A program made the translations under genes and the position numbers. 34,007 nucleotides of DNA from a virus. Positions 25,049 through 32,818 of this stretch are shown one piece after another. The stretch covers positions 1 to 34,007 of the IMG/VR virus record IMGVR_UViG_3300025108_000012; one strand, given 5' to 3'. Numbering within the stretch: position 1 is the first letter of the stretch; each line of letters starts with the position of its first letter. Below the pieces are notes generated by a model. The model saw nothing but the letters and a program-made list of their open reading frames with translations, had not been told where the DNA came from and made no database searches.

Positions 25049-26638
25049 TTATACTCCATACGCTTTGGCGTAATAGTCGGGATTTTCATTTCTAAATTGA
25101 GTTAATGCTTCGCTATACGAAACGCCCTTTTCAATACTTAGAGCCTGAACTCGCTCGTTTAAACTCGTTTTACTGATCTCTTGACCGCTCGCACCATGTC
25201 CGATTTGATTCAATGGCACAGTCGAGTTTAAAGGTCGCTCATTAAACATCGACCAGAACTCGGGCTGTACAGCTTTAATCGCCCAAGCTTTAGCGGCGAC
25301 GCTCGCTTCGGCAGGTGAAATTCGACCTTCCGAAAGTAGGGTTTTGACGGCGTCGTTACATTCAATCTCTCGCTTTTCGGCTTCGATTGTTTCGAGTCGT
25401 TCGTTGAGTCGAGCATTATTTTCTCTTAAACTGTTAATCTCAGATAAAAGCATCGACTCGCCTAAACTCGTAGTTTCGCTCATCGACGCTTTTTTCTTCT
25501 CGTCTTCGTCGTCGTCGTCTTCGGTTAGAGTTGTCTCGTCTTCGTCTTCATTCGTAGACTCTTCATTTTTAGAAACGATCGAAGACTCGGCTTCGTCTTT
25601 CATATCTGCGAGCGTTTGTTCAAGCTCTTTAACTAGCTCATCTTTAGCGGCAAGCGCCTTTTTAAGCTCGTCTGTACTCATGTCGTCGATGTTCATATCT
25701 GCCCTTTCGCTTAATGTAATTCGATCGATTTTATTGTTAGATTGTGCAGGTCGAGGCGTTAACGTAATCGCTAATAGTTGAGCATTACCGACCAAAGTAC
25801 CGCCGTCTCTTGAATATACATCGCCCGTTATGAACTCAGGCGACGACCAAAGGACACCGCCCGCATTTTGTACGACCTCGACGCCCCGTTCATTATAAGC
25901 GGGGATCGCATATAGGCCATCATCTTTAAGTTCTAAACCAACGATTAAACCGAGAGCGTTACCGCTTTCAGGCGGGGCGGGTTGCCCGCCTTGAAATGGA
26001 CTCGTAGCGTGTTGCCAGTCTATGACGACCGGGTCAACTTCGGCTCGCTCGTTATAAACTCGAACAAGCTCGGCGAGTAAATCTTGATCGATATCTTTAC
26101 CGATTTGATCCCCGCTCATTCGACTAGTTACTTGACCCAGTGCAAGCGTTTTAAATGCTCGACCAACGATCAAACCATCGTCTCTATCTGATTCGATGTC
26201 GATGTCGACTTTGACCGCTTCGCTATATGCTCTTAATGTTTTATTCTTCATTTTTTCATCAACCTTTTTCATCATACCGACGATTTTATTTGACCATCGA
26301 TAACCCGCATCACCCCCCCACGCCGACCATGCGATACGACCCTTTGACCAGTCCGACCATTTCGGCGACTTTTTGTCGACTTCGTGTCGCTGAAAATAGG
26401 AAAGCATACGCCGAACGGTATCGGGTGAAACCGTTTGACCATTTGATAAGTCTCTCGCCCGAGCGATCCCGACGGCGGTTAAACCCTTTTGTGATTTCGG
26501 TTTCTTTGCTCGAACCAATAACGCTTTTTTCGCTTCGGCTTGTACAGCTTTCGGCGGTGTAAAATTGATATGATTATATTTTTCAGGTGTCATCAAATGC
26601 GAGATGAAGTCTTGTTTTCGTTTTCGAATCTTAACCAT
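25049..26638 (-). CDS. Prohead protease-scaffold fusion (Mu gpI-like) with extra N-terminal domain
   Basis: A 529-residue protein with three parts. Residues of about 25-125 form a small basic domain with GLTAVGIARARDLSNGQ, SYFQRHEVDK and AWSAWGGDAGYRWSNK, seen in several phage prohead proteins. Residues of about 145-310 match the Mu I-like protease region, with VVIDWQHATSPF (possible catalytic His) and WSSPEFITGD. Residues of about 325-460 are an acidic, coiled-coil scaffold with a run of Asp/Glu (EDEDETTLTEDDDDEDE). The C-terminus is a helical delivery-like end. As in Mu, protease and scaffold are one gene. No internal start is obvious, but one at MNIDDMSTDELKK (about residue 313) would give a scaffold-only form. 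Confidence 0.8.
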   Translation of the reverse strand: MVKIRKRKQDFISHLMTPEKYNHINFTPPKAVQAEAKKALLVRAKKPKSQKGLTAVGIARARDLSNGQTVSPDTVRRMLSYFQRHEVDKKSPKWSDWSKGRIAWSAWGGDAGYRWSNKIVGMMKKVDEKMKNKTLRAYSEAVKVDIDIESDRDDGLIVGRAFKTLALGQVTSRMSGDQIGKDIDQDLLAELVRVYNERAEVDPVVIDWQHATSPFQGGQPAPPESGNALGLIVGLELKDDGLYAIPAYNERGVEVVQNAGGVLWSSPEFITGDVYSRDGGTLVGNAQLLAITLTPRPAQSNNKIDRITLSERADMNIDDMSTDELKKALAAKDELVKELEQTLADMKDEAESSIVSKNEESTNEDEDETTLTEDDDDEDEKKKASMSETTSLGESMLLSEINSLRENNARLNERLETIEAEKREIECNDAVKTLLSEGRISPAEASVAAKAWAIKAVQPEFWSMFNERPLNSTVPLNQIGHGASGQEISKTSLNERVQALSIEKGVSYSEALTQFRNENPDYYAKAYGV

Positions 26639-28046
26639 TTCGACGCCGCCTAATTAACGTTTCAGCAAGCGCCGAGACACCGCCGCCGCCTTTGGCCTGA
26701 ATAGTTCGCTCGATTGCTGATCGTTGCGCATCCTCGGGAAGGTCGCCCGCTCCGAGTCGATCTCGAATCGCTCTCTCAAGTTCATCGTCTGGCGTTAATA
26801 ACCCGGCGGTTACTAAAGCGGGTAAGCTGTTCAATGATTCGGCGAGATCATCGGTATCAAGCCCCGTATGTACAAGACGAGGTAACTTCGACGGGTCAAC
26901 CGCTCCGTAGTTCCATTTGACTAGTCGACCGACTGTACCGCCGCCTCGACGATCGACGCCGTTGATTGTACTCGTTACGATGTCGCATAGATTAATCGCC
27001 GCTCGTCTAAACACACTTAAATGTATTTCCCCGACTGACCTCGCCCCCGTTTCAGTATTTCCCAAATCGGCGAACTGGGCGAGGAAAGCACTTGAGATTT
27101 GCGAATCGCATTTCGTGATAATTTCTAGCGGGGCGCTTGCGTATAAATTCGACTGCATAGCATACGTATCGAATTTAACTGCACCCGTCTCGACTAGATA
27201 CGATTGTTCAGTCGAGATAAATGATCGGGCCTGTTCTTCGGCGTCGTCGATCATCGCTTCGATATCGCCGTCGGTTAGACCTTGCGATTCGGCTTGCGAA
27301 CGATCTACTTTTACAACGGGCGTCGGGATCGCCCAACGATCAACGCCGACACACATTAAATTAGACACACGTTGTTTTGTTCGCCACCACCACCAGACAG
27401 GGCGAAGCATACCGACGCCCTCGAAGTTCGACCCCGTTCGATTCAATGTTAATAACAAAAGTTTATTAGCGGGGATCGGCTCGGGTGTATATGTAACGCC
27501 GACCGTATTTTGTAAAACGCCGTCGAGGTTTTGATTGTCTCGACTTAACCATCGATTATGCGCCGATGGTTCTCGATCAGCGTATTGATCAAGCCAAATG
27601 CGAGAACGACCAGTCGAATCAAGACCGACTCTATAAATCTCCTCGGCGTATCTATAGCCGACTGGGATAAACTCTAAAAGATAGCTGAGTTGATCTTCAA
27701 ACGAAGACGACATTTGACCCGAGAAGCCGTCGAAGCCGAACGCCTCGTTACAATATCGAGCGAGTTCATCGGCGACGGGGTCGGATTCGATCCCCGCTTC
27801 AAATCGCCATGACGCCGACAATAATGTTTGTTTCAACATATGCCAAGACCGACGAACGATCGGGTCGGTTCTTAGCATTTCTTCGGCTTCACTTACCCAC
27901 GATAAACCCGTTAAGCTTGCATTTCGCTCCTTACCCGAAATCACCCCGCCGTTTAATTGAGTACCTGTTATGCCTCGAGTTTGAAAGCGTGGGTATTTGC
28001 CTTTAAGATGGCGTTGTTCTCGATTAACGAGTTTATTCATAGACAT
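26631..28046 (-). CDS. Portal protein (Mu gp29 / DUF935-like)
   Basis: A 471-residue portal. Signature segments: EEMLRTDPIVRRSWHMLKQT near the N-terminus, a GMLRPVWWWWRTKQRVSNLM helix (about 216-235), IMIDDAEEQARSFIST and the C-terminal helical wing. Portals form the dodecameric DNA entry ring. It is the first gene of the structural operon, 27 bases or so downstream of the predicted transcription start, behind GGGG. A second ATG (codon 3) is a possible start. It follows the control interval rather than TerL directly, because a methyltransferase lies between. Confidence 0.85.
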   Translation of the reverse strand: MSMNKLVNREQRHLKGKYPRFQTRGITGTQLNGGVISGKERNASLTGLSWVSEAEEMLRTDPIVRRSWHMLKQTLLSASWRFEAGIESDPVADELARYCNEAFGFDGFSGQMSSSFEDQLSYLLEFIPVGYRYAEEIYRVGLDSTGRSRIWLDQYADREPSAHNRWLSRDNQNLDGVLQNTVGVTYTPEPIPANKLLLLTLNRTGSNFEGVGMLRPVWWWWRTKQRVSNLMCVGVDRWAIPTPVVKVDRSQAESQGLTDGDIEAMIDDAEEQARSFISTEQSYLVETGAVKFDTYAMQSNLYASAPLEIITKCDSQISSAFLAQFADLGNTETGARSVGEIHLSVFRRAAINLCDIVTSTINGVDRRGGGTVGRLVKWNYGAVDPSKLPRLVHTGLDTDDLAESLNSLPALVTAGLLTPDDELERAIRDRLGAGDLPEDAQRSAIERTIQAKGGGGVSALAETLIRRRRNG

Positions 28047-28329: not shown

Positions 28330-29478
28330 TTATTTAAGCAATCCTTCCAATCTCTCGACGTCGGAGTAGGCTAATTCTCGCAATAACGTTTTGAAGGCTC
28401 GCTCGGCGGTCGCCGGGACAACTCCATTTCCGAGTAATCGTAGTTCATCCGTTCTATTATCAACGGATTGGTACAACTTGGCATCGTCCAGCCGATAGGT
28501 AATCCCATCAGTAATTCGACCCACCGAGGGTTTAATTTTCCTCTGTAATTTTCGGCGTCGTGTACTTGCCTCGGCATTGTATCGATACGACCCTTTCCAT
28601 CGGATCGAGGGGGTAACTTTTTTTTCATTTCGATTTCGTAAGAGTCTCTTGTTATTGGAGTTGCCCACTTTTTCGCTCGCTGTATTGTAATTTGCCCTTG
28701 TAATCCTAATTGTTTTTTCAGTTCCAATCTTCTTTGAAAATGATCGAGAGAACAACCTAGTTCTCTTATTTCCATCGAAGCCGTCGGAGTTACCCATAGC
28801 AACTCTCTTGGGTTCAAAGCTATATTGTTTTTCTTCTCTAAACGCAGGCCATACATTCTCGAACTGAGTGTTTGATTCGATAAGTCTGTTAATAACATCA
28901 TATCCGGTTCGTTTAAGATCATCGGATATACCGAGAATGAAAACTCGCTTTCGACGATGAGGCGCGCCGACTTCGCTCGCCGAGAATATGCCCGCCGTCG
29001 CTCGGTAGCCCAGTCGTTCCAACTCTCGGAGGATATGAAGCAAAACGGGCGTCGATTCGGGGTCGCTCCATTGATCGGAGTGTAATTTTGATGAGAAGAT
29101 CCCTTCGACGTTTTCCAAGAAAACAACGGTAGGTCGGCAAATTTTGATTCCCCGTTTAATCGAAGGCCATAAATGTCTTGAGTCTTCGTCGGCGGCTCTT
29201 CGCCCGGCTGTACTAAATGGTTGGCAAGGGAAACCGCCTGACAAGATATCCACTTTTTGACTAAATATTTCCCAGTCGAACGTTTTAAGATTCGACCAGA
29301 TAGGGGCGAGGTCGAGTAAACCCGCTTCAATCTTCGAAACCAAGTTTTCGATGGCGAAATATTCGATCTCCACATAACAGATCGTTCGAATATTTCTGAT
29401 AGCTCTTTTAAGTCCGAGATCAATTCCCCCGTACCCTGTACAGAGTGATATATGTTTAAGTTCTTCGGTATTATCCAC
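28330..29478 (-). CDS. C5-cytosine DNA methyltransferase
   Basis: A 382-residue DNA (cytosine-5-)-methyltransferase with all key motifs: motif I TGYGGIDLGL (14-23), motif IV GGFPCQPF with catalytic Cys85, motif VI ENVEG (122-126), motif VIII GAPHRRKRVFILG (171-183) and the C-terminal motif IX/X region with LRLLGNGVVPATAERAF (about 346-362). It probably protects phage DNA from host restriction; no partner endonuclease is adjacent. The start must be GTG: the frame is closed by TAA two codons upstream. An overlapping frame starts at an ATG two bases before this GTG, using the same AAAGG. Composition is TCGA-poor, suggesting import. It interrupts the terminase-portal order. Confidence 0.9.
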   Translation of the reverse strand: MDNTEELKHISLCTGYGGIDLGLKRAIRNIRTICYVEIEYFAIENLVSKIEAGLLDLAPIWSNLKTFDWEIFSQKVDILSGGFPCQPFSTAGRRAADEDSRHLWPSIKRGIKICRPTVVFLENVEGIFSSKLHSDQWSDPESTPVLLHILRELERLGYRATAGIFSASEVGAPHRRKRVFILGISDDLKRTGYDVINRLIESNTQFENVWPAFREEKQYSFEPKRVAMGNSDGFDGNKRTRLFSRSFSKKIGTEKTIRITRANYNTASEKVGNSNNKRLLRNRNEKKVTPSIRWKGSYRYNAEASTRRRKLQRKIKPSVGRITDGITYRLDDAKLYQSVDNRTDELRLLGNGVVPATAERAFKTLLRELAYSDVERLEGLLK

Positions 29479-29480
29479 AT
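28371..29480 (-). CDS. Overprinted ORF in the methyltransferase gene, recognisable C-terminal domain
   Basis: A second frame of 369 codons is open over nearly the whole methyltransferase gene, starting ATG at 29480 behind AAAGG, 2 bases before the methyltransferase GTG. Its C-terminal third has WVTPTAS, KKWATPITRDS and KLNPRWVELLMGLPIGWT, which from memory matches a recurrent phage protein C-terminus found next to or within C5 methyltransferase genes. The same bases read as KPSVGRITDGITYRLD in the methyltransferase frame. The N-terminal two thirds are basic and not recognised. It may be a real second product, a frameshifted alternative C-terminus, or a relic. The C-terminal domain is supported; expression is not shown. 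Confidence 0.45.
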   Translation of the reverse strand: MWIIPKNLNIYHSVQGTGELISDLKELSEIFERSVMWRSNISPSKTWFRRLKRVYSTSPLSGRILKRSTGKYLVKKWISCQAVSLANHLVQPGEEPPTKTQDIYGLRLNGESKFADLPLFSWKTSKGSSHQNYTPINGATPNRRPFCFISSESWNDWATERRRAYSRRAKSARLIVESEFSFSVYPMILNEPDMMLLTDLSNQTLSSRMYGLRLEKKNNIALNPRELLWVTPTASMEIRELGCSLDHFQRRLELKKQLGLQGQITIQRAKKWATPITRDSYEIEMKKKLPPRSDGKGRIDTMPRQVHDAENYRGKLNPRWVELLMGLPIGWTMPSCTNPLIIERMNYDYSEMELSRRPPSEPSKRYCEN

Positions 29481-29490
29481 TTTAAACCTT

Positions 29491-30864
29491 TCAAAAGCTA
29501 GCTTTTGCCCCGCCGCCCGTTCGAACTTTTCGACCTTTTTTATCAGTCGAACTCGAACGGCTTGTATAACGTTTTGTATCGACGCTTGTATCGTGCCAGT
29601 TGAATATTATACAGTCGTATCGAAGGGCGTCGAGCGGGTCTTCTCGACCGTCCTTAACGGGTCGTTCGTTCTTATCCCAAGCATACGATAATAATGCTTT
29701 TCGAAGACTATTACCCGATGATCTTTCGCCCCGATCCCATACGTCCCGAGTTATTAAATATCGACGTTGAGCGAACGCCCGTTTTAATCGTTGAACGCCG
29801 TTTAATACATCGGTTTTGATCGGGTCGCTTGTATGACGAAGAGCCATACCGAGACCGTTCGGCGGGGCGGTTCTCATCGCTCGAAATGCACTCGCCCCGG
29901 TTTGGTCGTTTCTCGCTCGCCCCGCTTTATCAGCGACACCAGTGTCGAGCCATATTCTCGCCGACGGGGCGTCGTTTTGTAATGAGCGAGGCCATGATAT
30001 AGACGTTATCAATCGAGCTAATTCGGCGGTCGTTACTTCTTTCGGATTGAACTCAGCACAAATGACCGAAGCGTTTAATGTCTCATCATGTACGATAATC
30101 AAAACTGATGGTTTTCTAAATCCCCAGTCGATAGCGATTCGCCCCGTCATCGATTCGTTATATTCCCAGTTATCAATAACAAGCGACTCGGTGAACTCGC
30201 TATATATCAATCCCGTTGGCGGCTTCGGTTTATTCATAACCATCGCCTCACGTTCGTCGACGGGTAACATTTTCGTCGCTTCGAACCAGTCGTCCGATAG
30301 ATTTTGTTTGTTAACGTAGCTCGTAAATAAAAGCGGGTCATAGCCTGCCGACTCCGACATCGATACCCACCAAGCCCCGACAACGGGCAAGCCTACAAGA
30401 ATCATAATCGGCGATTCGCCTGCTCGAAGTCGCCCGAGTGCTTTATGTGCAACCTCGGCGCTTAATGTTTGACACTCATCTATAAGACAAACGCCCGACG
30501 TTATGTTCAAGCCTTCAAGGGGATTATGAGTCGTGTCCCTTGTACCCGGTCGATAATACGATCGACACCAGACTGTAGACCCCGTATGAGGATCAAACCA
30601 AACTTGTTGAGTATGATTATACGTCCAACCGAGCGGCGATAACCACTTTTCGATTTCAGGCATTAACACCGATCGATATCTCGGCGCTGTATCTGTAACG
30701 AGTAGAATACTTGTACCGGGTCGCACTTTTGCAACGAACAAAATCGAGAAGACGAGCGCCGATGTTTTGCCCGATCCCCACCCGCAGCGAGCCGATATAA
30801 TTTTATCTTTTCGAATAATACGCCCGATGATCTGAGCTTGAAGTTCGTTAAGATTTAAACTCAT
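29491..30864 (-). CDS. terL: Terminase large subunit
   Basis: A 457-residue packaging motor. Walker A GWGSGKT (28-34), Walker B VCLIDE (125-130) with catalytic Glu, and an RNase H-like nuclease domain with acidic residues in IAIDWGF (D246), IWLDTG (D307) and GREDPLDALRYD (about 406-417). It translocates DNA into the prohead and cuts concatemers. Small-subunit gene lies upstream, separated by one small gene. Nuclease and ATPase residues appear intact. Packaging type (pac headful or cos) cannot be settled, but the circular assembly fits headful packaging. The stop lies 10 bases before the methyltransferase/overprint start. Confidence 0.95.
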   Translation of the reverse strand: MSLNLNELQAQIIGRIIRKDKIISARCGWGSGKTSALVFSILFVAKVRPGTSILLVTDTAPRYRSVLMPEIEKWLSPLGWTYNHTQQVWFDPHTGSTVWCRSYYRPGTRDTTHNPLEGLNITSGVCLIDECQTLSAEVAHKALGRLRAGESPIMILVGLPVVGAWWVSMSESAGYDPLLFTSYVNKQNLSDDWFEATKMLPVDEREAMVMNKPKPPTGLIYSEFTESLVIDNWEYNESMTGRIAIDWGFRKPSVLIIVHDETLNASVICAEFNPKEVTTAELARLITSISWPRSLQNDAPSARIWLDTGVADKAGRARNDQTGASAFRAMRTAPPNGLGMALRHTSDPIKTDVLNGVQRLKRAFAQRRYLITRDVWDRGERSSGNSLRKALLSYAWDKNERPVKDGREDPLDALRYDCIIFNWHDTSVDTKRYTSRSSSTDKKGRKVRTGGGAKASF

Positions 30865-31774: not shown

Positions 31775-32818
31775 TTATGATGACTTGAATAGATTCATTA
31801 CTCGTCTAAATACCGACGGCCTTACAATCACATCATAACCTGTAACATCGCTCGAACGTCGTCGAATATGCTGTTTATGTAGTGAGTTAAACCATTGATG
31901 ATCAGGGTATTTATTATTTGTCTTAATACGTTGAAAAGTTGTCGGAGACATATTCAACTCGATTGCTATCGATGTTAGCGTTAAACCTTCTTTTAACCGG
32001 GTCTCGATTATTGTTTTCTCATCGTCAGTAAACCGAGTCATTACGCCCCGCTTTCGCTTCTCTTTTACGACGTCGTCATTTTGGGGCTTATCTTCAGAGA
32101 CAAATAAATCAAGTTGTTCGCTCTCGACGGGGTCGACTGGGTCGACGCTCTCGACTGGGTCGACGCTCTCGACTGGGTCGAATCTTGATAATCTAGTTTG
32201 AGGATATGCCGACGGCTCGAGCGATGTCGTTTCGTCGATTGTAAAGAAATCTTCGAGTTGATCAGTTTGTTTTATAGCTAGTTCGAACTCGCCCAATGTC
32301 TCGAAATACTGAATAACCGCCTCGTCTTTATTTTGACCATGTAGCATGATCATCGCATAATCATCGCTATTATATTTCTTTAGATACTGACTGGACGCCT
32401 CATCTTCATAAACGAGAATGTAAAAGACCCAACGACCGAAAGAACAGTTTTGTCGATTGCGTCGTAAAGTCAATTCAGTAACTAAACTTAAAAATTTATG
32501 ATTACCGTATTGATCGGAGATATATCGAATGATGTCGGATTGCGTCGGGCGATTTTTATTGTATCGAGTCGTTTTGACTTCAGAGAGTAAAACCGTATGA
32601 GTCGGATCGTCTCTAGTATATGTGACCAGATCAGCGCAATTTGTTAAATCGCCATCGGCGAACGGCGGCTTTCGATTCGTAAATCTTGTTTCATACGCCC
32701 TGTTAGCCAGTTGAAAATTAGAATAATGACCGTTGAATATAGCGGCGATTTGACCTGCTAAAAAGTTGTGTAAGTTCGTTTGTTCATTCGTTGCATATTG
32801 TGTATTCGTTGCGTTCAT
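31775..32818 (-). CDS. PD-(D/E)XK-like nuclease domain fused to HTH
   Basis: A 347-residue protein. Residues of about 55-100 contain a PD-(D/E)XK-like layout: CADLVTYTRDD, then about 15 residues to LSEVKTTRYNK (E-x-K), followed by a helix with RYISDQYGNHKF. Residues of about 210-235 are a repeat linker (VDPVESVDPVES). Residues of about 270-300 form a helix-turn-helix (FTDDEKTIIETRLKEG, then TSIAIELNMSPTTFQRI). The C-terminus is basic. It may be the recombination or processing nuclease that partners the RecT-like protein, or a DNA-binding regulator with a degenerate nuclease fold. It starts in ATGA overlap with a 7-codon leader. Confidence 0.55.
   Translation of the reverse strand: MNATNTQYATNEQTNLHNFLAGQIAAIFNGHYSNFQLANRAYETRFTNRKPPFADGDLTNCADLVTYTRDDPTHTVLLSEVKTTRYNKNRPTQSDIIRYISDQYGNHKFLSLVTELTLRRNRQNCSFGRWVFYILVYEDEASSQYLKKYNSDDYAMIMLHGQNKDEAVIQYFETLGEFELAIKQTDQLEDFFTIDETTSLEPSAYPQTRLSRFDPVESVDPVESVDPVDPVESEQLDLFVSEDKPQNDDVVKEKRKRGVMTRFTDDEKTIIETRLKEGLTLTSIAIELNMSPTTFQRIKTNNKYPDHQWFNSLHKQHIRRRSSDVTGYDVIVRPSVFRRVMNLFKSS
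32121..32182. repeat. Short tandem repeat, 18-bp unit
   Basis: CTCTCGACTGGGTCGACG-type units start at 32148 and 32166 after a longer related copy at 32121. They encode the acidic VDPVES linker. The 18-bp unit keeps frame, so copy number can vary. Confidence 0.75.

Follow-up and report, generated by a model that had tools for sequence, protein, structure and literature searches.

An overprinted gene pair in a viral genome is predicted to encode both polypeptides of one C5-cytosine methyltransferase

In this study, we describe two overlapping genes on the same strand, both under purifying selection, in the window (the whole stretch of 34,007 nucleotides that was analysed, from the virus record IMGVR_UViG_3300025108_000012), located between the genes for the terminase large subunit (29491–30864) and the portal (26631–28046), as assigned from the PHROG matches of these neighbours. 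One frame, denoted α, carries the catalytic core of a C5-cytosine DNA methyltransferase, and the second frame, denoted β, is overprinted on it. We consider it likely, with a probability of about 0.84, that α and β are the two polypeptides of a single heteromeric C5-cytosine methyltransferase, with β as the motif IX subunit; the overprinting itself is near certain. An earlier note, made from the sequence of the window, had described two same-strand frames of 382 and 369 codons starting at GTG 29478 and ATG 29480 behind AAAGG, and the open reading frames lie exactly there; the peptides it had pointed out, WVTPTAS, KKWATPITRDS and LNPRWVELLMGLPIGWT, were all located in β (Table 1).

Table 1. Positions of the α and β frames and of their features in the window
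Feature	Positions (strand)	Sequence or start	Remarks
α frame	28330..29478 (−)	GTG start, 382 aa	C5-cytosine methyltransferase core: motifs I–VIII, variable linker, motif X
β frame	28371..29480 (−)	ATG start, 369 aa	Overprinted, +1 relative to α; N-terminal half conserved, W(A/V)TPT blocks, motif IX at the C-terminus
Probable shared Shine–Dalgarno	29487..29491 (−)	AAAGG	From sequence
Twin start	29476..29480 (−)	ATGTG	β ATG, α GTG 2 bases on; read from sequence
β N-terminus	29457..29480 (−)	MWIIPKNL	Faces the α N-terminus VDNTEELK
α motif I region	29422..29445 (−)	LCTGYGGI	
α motif IV	29212..29238 (−)	GGFPCQPFS	Includes the catalytic Cys; PCQ invariant in alignment A1
α motif VI	29101..29115 (−)	ENVEG	ENV invariant in alignment A1
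α motif VIII region	28939..28968 (−)	GAPHRRKRVF	
α variable linker	28432..28860 (−)	Residues 207–349	Predicted unfolded, near-neutral; coincides with the constrained part of β that holds the WATPT blocks and motif IX
β WVTPTAS block	28776..28796 (−)	WVTPTAS	α reading there: MGNSDGF
β KKWATPITRDS block	28641..28673 (−)	KKWATPITRDS	α reading there: VGNSNNKRLL
β motif IX	28485..28535 (−)	LNPRWVELLMGLPIGWT	Single-chain HMM alignment
α motif X	28411..28437 (−)	LLGNGVVPA	Single-chain HMM alignment

The α frame matched PF00145 with an E-value of 5e-38 (131.8 bits against a cut-off of 22), phrog_363 with 6.5e-53 and TIGR00675 with 103.6 bits, which exceeds the cut-off of that family, and both this profile match and motifs I, IV (PCQ), VI (ENV), VIII and X place it among the C5-cytosine DNA methyltransferases of PF00145; its C5 motifs are invariant in alignment A1. 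The AF2 model of α is confident for the large domain and for the helix of motif X, and residues 207–349 are not folded (pLDDT about 26–46); its comparison with M.HhaI gave a Z of 19.4 and an rmsd of 3.5 for 202 of 327 residues. The core fold and motifs of α are shared with the single-chain enzymes M.HhaI, M.HaeIII and Dcm. The earlier note had credited the methyltransferase frame with every C5 motif, which does not hold for motif IX: single-chain members carry it on the same polypeptide, unlike the known two-polypeptide members, but it is absent from α and is present on β. In the classical C5 methyltransferases that were sampled, motif IX (such as RxLTxREAARLQSFP) lies in the main frame and there is no long second frame. 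As a separate observation, two related loci (L057 and L058) show a single stop at α codon 118, inside the core (EPL*FFGENV), with β intact, and the related locus L059 has W at this position.

The reading of β as a chance open frame opposite the methyltransferase gene is refuted by several lines of evidence. When the codons of α were shuffled synonymously in 20,000 trials, β never stayed open and acquired 9.8 stops on average and at least 2; when those of β were shuffled in the same way, α was open in none of 20,000 (minimum 8 stops). For comparison, 13 further large ORFs of the window were examined in their two unused frames on the same strand, which contain 12–68 stops and stay open for 92 codons at most. 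The conservation of β as a family and the substitution pattern, both described below, also speak against chance. It had been proposed beforehand that the second frame was the result of overprinting or of a frameshift rather than of chance, and overprinting is supported by the integrity of β in homologues and by selection on both frames.

As a query, β matched 60 other viral contigs, mostly over its full length from residue 1 and with about 28–44% identity. In all 60 of these contigs the α frame lies in the matching register (broken in some of them) and the third frame is closed across the gene. The β frame is intact in each of the 57 loci, the window included, whose contig spans the whole β gene, which is the outcome of a check for stops in the alternate frame of homologues that had been suggested for this DNA; in most of the 57, α runs to its full length and includes motif X. 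All 50 aligned β sequences matched phrog_1008, and at the MWIIPKNL N-terminus M1, W2 and P5 are invariant and the remaining positions reach at least 90% (alignment A3). No plasmid match was found for β. Modelled alone with AF2, β gave a poor model (pLDDT 52.7), in which the fold of a target-recognition domain (TRD) is not visible. In about ten loci (L044, L045, L047, L048 and L051–L056) α stops just after motif VIII and β is intact, and motif X is therefore not always on one continuous α chain; in L044, motif X persists further down in the α frame, perhaps as a separate ORF, which raises the question of a three-piece enzyme. The motif IX block occurs twice in one β frame in L016 and L017, which suggests a tandem duplication of recognition modules. 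In two Pseudodesulfovibrio contigs (L074 and L072), a different α family (AEPELGRVxxGTPxRVDRLxCIGNGQVP) also carries a +1 β frame, and dual coding therefore extends beyond the MWIIPKNL lineage.

Both frames proved to be under selection. Across 14 close pairs, the overlap had substitution rates of 0.086, 0.031 and 0.069 at α codon positions 1, 2 and 3, compared with 0.088, 0.051 and 0.275 for the longest ORF flanking it in each pair; the excess normally seen at α third positions, which coincide with β second positions, is gone in the overlap. Relative to changes that are silent in both frames, which are few (33) and therefore leave wide intervals on these ratios, changes that alter α and are silent in β occurred at a rate of 0.40 (0.28–0.66), and changes that alter β among those synonymous in α at 0.29 (0.22–0.44), so that the synonymous-site constraint which the earlier note had proposed to look for is present. 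In the region of α motifs IV–VIII, the rate was 0.14 for α-changing and 0.29 for β-changing substitutions; beyond motif VIII, it was 0.81 (0.58–1.46) for α-changing and 0.20 (0.08–0.50) for β-changing substitutions. Some of the pairs repeat one split, and with 10 non-redundant pairs these ratios are similar. After motif VIII, α thus evolves almost neutrally and β is constrained. Scored against family HMMs from which the window had been left out, β reached 358.9 bits compared with 162±19 after α-preserving shuffles (z 10.4), and α reached 428.7 bits compared with 129±19 after β-preserving shuffles (z 15.7). The locus is thus a same-strand overlapping (overprinted) gene pair in which α and β are both under purifying selection.

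A damaged methyltransferase gene, in which compensating indels or assembly errors have left the second frame as a relic, would account for a central block lying in a different frame from motifs I–VIII and X. However, 47 distinct loci from independently made assemblies share this arrangement, phage isolates show it as well, and selection acts on both frames; this reading, compensating frameshifts included, is therefore also refuted.

The nature of the β C-terminus was revealed by its relatives. Profile scans with the LNPxWVExLMGxPxGW block yielded 160 further viral loci. Sorted by frame, 72 loci with the block combine α (motifs I–VIII and X) with a motif IX read in the +1 frame, 34 combine α (motifs I–VIII) with motifs IX and X in the +1 frame and 28 hold motifs I–VIII, the block and motif X within a single ORF; the remaining loci are unclear or are split without overlap. 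The 28 single-chain phage methyltransferases have LSPRFVEWLMGLPDG in one frame with motifs VIII and X, which flank it. An HMM was built from the C-terminal part of these 28 enzymes, and its motif IX columns (152–180) aligned to residues 303–331 of β of the window (E = 1.2e-5) and its motif X columns (189–220) to α of the window. As the HMM matches the window on both frames, the end of β is motif IX and the C-terminal part of the enzyme is divided between the frames; this C5 motif IX is what the earlier note had described as a recurring end of phage proteins. This assignment rests on the single-chain phage intermediates: in hhalign the motif IX–X region of β and classical bacterial C5 methyltransferases aligned in the same columns with a weak E-value of 0.008, and a phmmer search of the motif IX–X stretch against the PDB gave a chance match only. 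Motif X is found in the β frame in loci L050, L071, L078 and L079, whereas the window has GNGVVP in α. In three bacterial C5 methyltransferases with an LNP-type motif IX, the motif lies in the +1 frame beside an open run of 213–495 codons. In five loci (L136, L144, L148, L149 and L164), the α core and the ORF with motifs IX and X overlap barely or not at all, and the +1 frame is not preferred.

It is improbable that β is a real overprinted protein that acts independently of the enzyme, as a regulator, an anti-restriction protein or otherwise, and merely shares its DNA. The absence of any Pfam, NCBIfam or PDB sequence match for β and the conservation of an N-terminal half without an assigned role would suit such a protein, but its C-terminus is the very motif IX that α lacks, related β ORFs also carry motif X or are fused to motifs I–VIII in a single ORF, and among the 60 β contigs no complete MWIIPKNL-type β was found apart from an α core. 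We prefer the reading in which α and β are most likely the two halves of one enzyme and would be active as a complex. Since β is constrained and α is near-neutral beyond motif VIII, β probably supplies target recognition in addition to motif IX.

For the synthesis of both chains, a choice of start at ATGTG behind one Shine–Dalgarno sequence would be the simplest route, because the GTG is the sole α start before the upstream stop in 31 of the 47 distinct loci and the next in-frame α start lies 11–45 codons in, usually no earlier than codon 35, where motif I has already been passed. A Shine–Dalgarno-like string lies upstream in 39 of the 47 loci. As MWIIPKNL was among the scan patterns, this sample is in part preselected for conservation of ATGTGG. 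Programmed frameshifting could instead join α motifs I–VIII, the central block of β with motif IX and, back in the first frame, α motif X into one chain, and both the order of the blocks in the DNA, which fits a single-chain enzyme, and the existence of 28 single-chain relatives are in keeping with this. However, such a chain would require two shifts in opposite directions and would leave the conserved ATG and the selected N-terminal half of β unused, which makes it a very improbable product; with separate GTG and ATG starts for α and β, frameshifting is not needed.

For the two-polypeptide enzyme that we favour, the following mechanism may be proposed. Ribosomes would be recruited by the one Shine–Dalgarno sequence and would start either at the ATG, giving β, or at the GTG two bases on, giving α. 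The α chain would fold as the catalytic large domain, which binds SAM, carries the PCQ nucleophile and ENV and is completed by the helix of motif X; its stretch between motifs VIII and X would serve only as a linker. The β chain would contribute the missing part of the small domain, namely motif IX and probably the target-recognition region, and its overprinted N-terminal half may keep the subunits together. The expected activity of such a complex is methylation of phage DNA, plausibly as a protection against host restriction.

Among known two-part enzymes, M.EcoHK31I resembles the window in that its small chain is read from an alternative frame which overlaps that of the large chain. According to the summary of Lee, Kam and Shaw (1995) in PMC3404938, one polypeptide of M.EcoHK31I (YGGCCR), the large chain, carries motifs I–VIII and X and the other carries motif IX only, and both features are found in the window; this likeness is one of motif layout. 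However, β of the window spans nearly the whole α gene and starts two bases before α, it has a conserved overprinted N-terminal half and the α linker is near-neutral, and the gene belongs to a phage, in which terminase and portal genes flank it. The constrained variable region of the window is on β, but M.EcoHK31I is predicted to have its TRD on the large chain. In M.AquI (CYCGRG), motif IX is on the second polypeptide as in the window, but the same source (PMC3404938) places motif X on that second chain as well, whereas motif X of the window is on α; the M.AquI layout occurs, in the +1 frame, in 34 related viral loci.

Among isolates, the +1 arrangement was found in Paenibacillus phages, Acinetobacter phage ABMM1, mycobacteriophage ShroomBoi and Salmonella phage SEN4, and it also occurs on bacterial contigs. 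In Arthrobacter phage Andrew and Streptomyces phage Euratis, the form with motif X in β is annotated as two methylases. In Paenibacillus phage Redbud, the 'g50 internal gene' (REDBUD_51, AJK27910) is an annotated +1-frame gene within a C5 methyltransferase and ends with LNPDWVECLMGFPIGWT; unlike β of the window, it starts inside α and lacks the MWIIPKNL N-terminus, and it is labelled as a hypothetical protein. In a literature search that had most subscription journals outside its reach, no description of overprinted phage C5 methyltransferases was found. Two-part C5 enzymes are already known, and what is new here is the near-complete overlap, the twin starts and the overprinted, conserved N-terminal half of β. 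We are somewhat inclined to regard the locus as an extreme form of a widespread and mostly unrecognized class of phage C5 methyltransferases with catalytic and recognition subunits on the same bases; here, the overlap is about 1.1 kb, the starts are two bases apart, the ratio of the subunits would be set by one ribosome-binding site and overprinting of the catalytic core would have given rise de novo to the N-terminal half of the recognition subunit. To our knowledge, long and fully selected same-strand overlaps are rare, and one partner is usually without a known function; unlike such overlaps, α and β appear to be partners in one enzyme. Single-chain, split and overprinted relatives can be compared, which opens the origin and upkeep of the overprinting to experiment. 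As annotation usually retains one frame only, a subunit required for the prediction of specificity or for the production of active phage methyltransferases may routinely be missed.

Elsewhere in the window, a 347-residue ORF at 31775–32818, upstream of the terminase genes, weakly matched a transcriptional regulator and a DNA invertase, the matches being confined to its C-terminal part.
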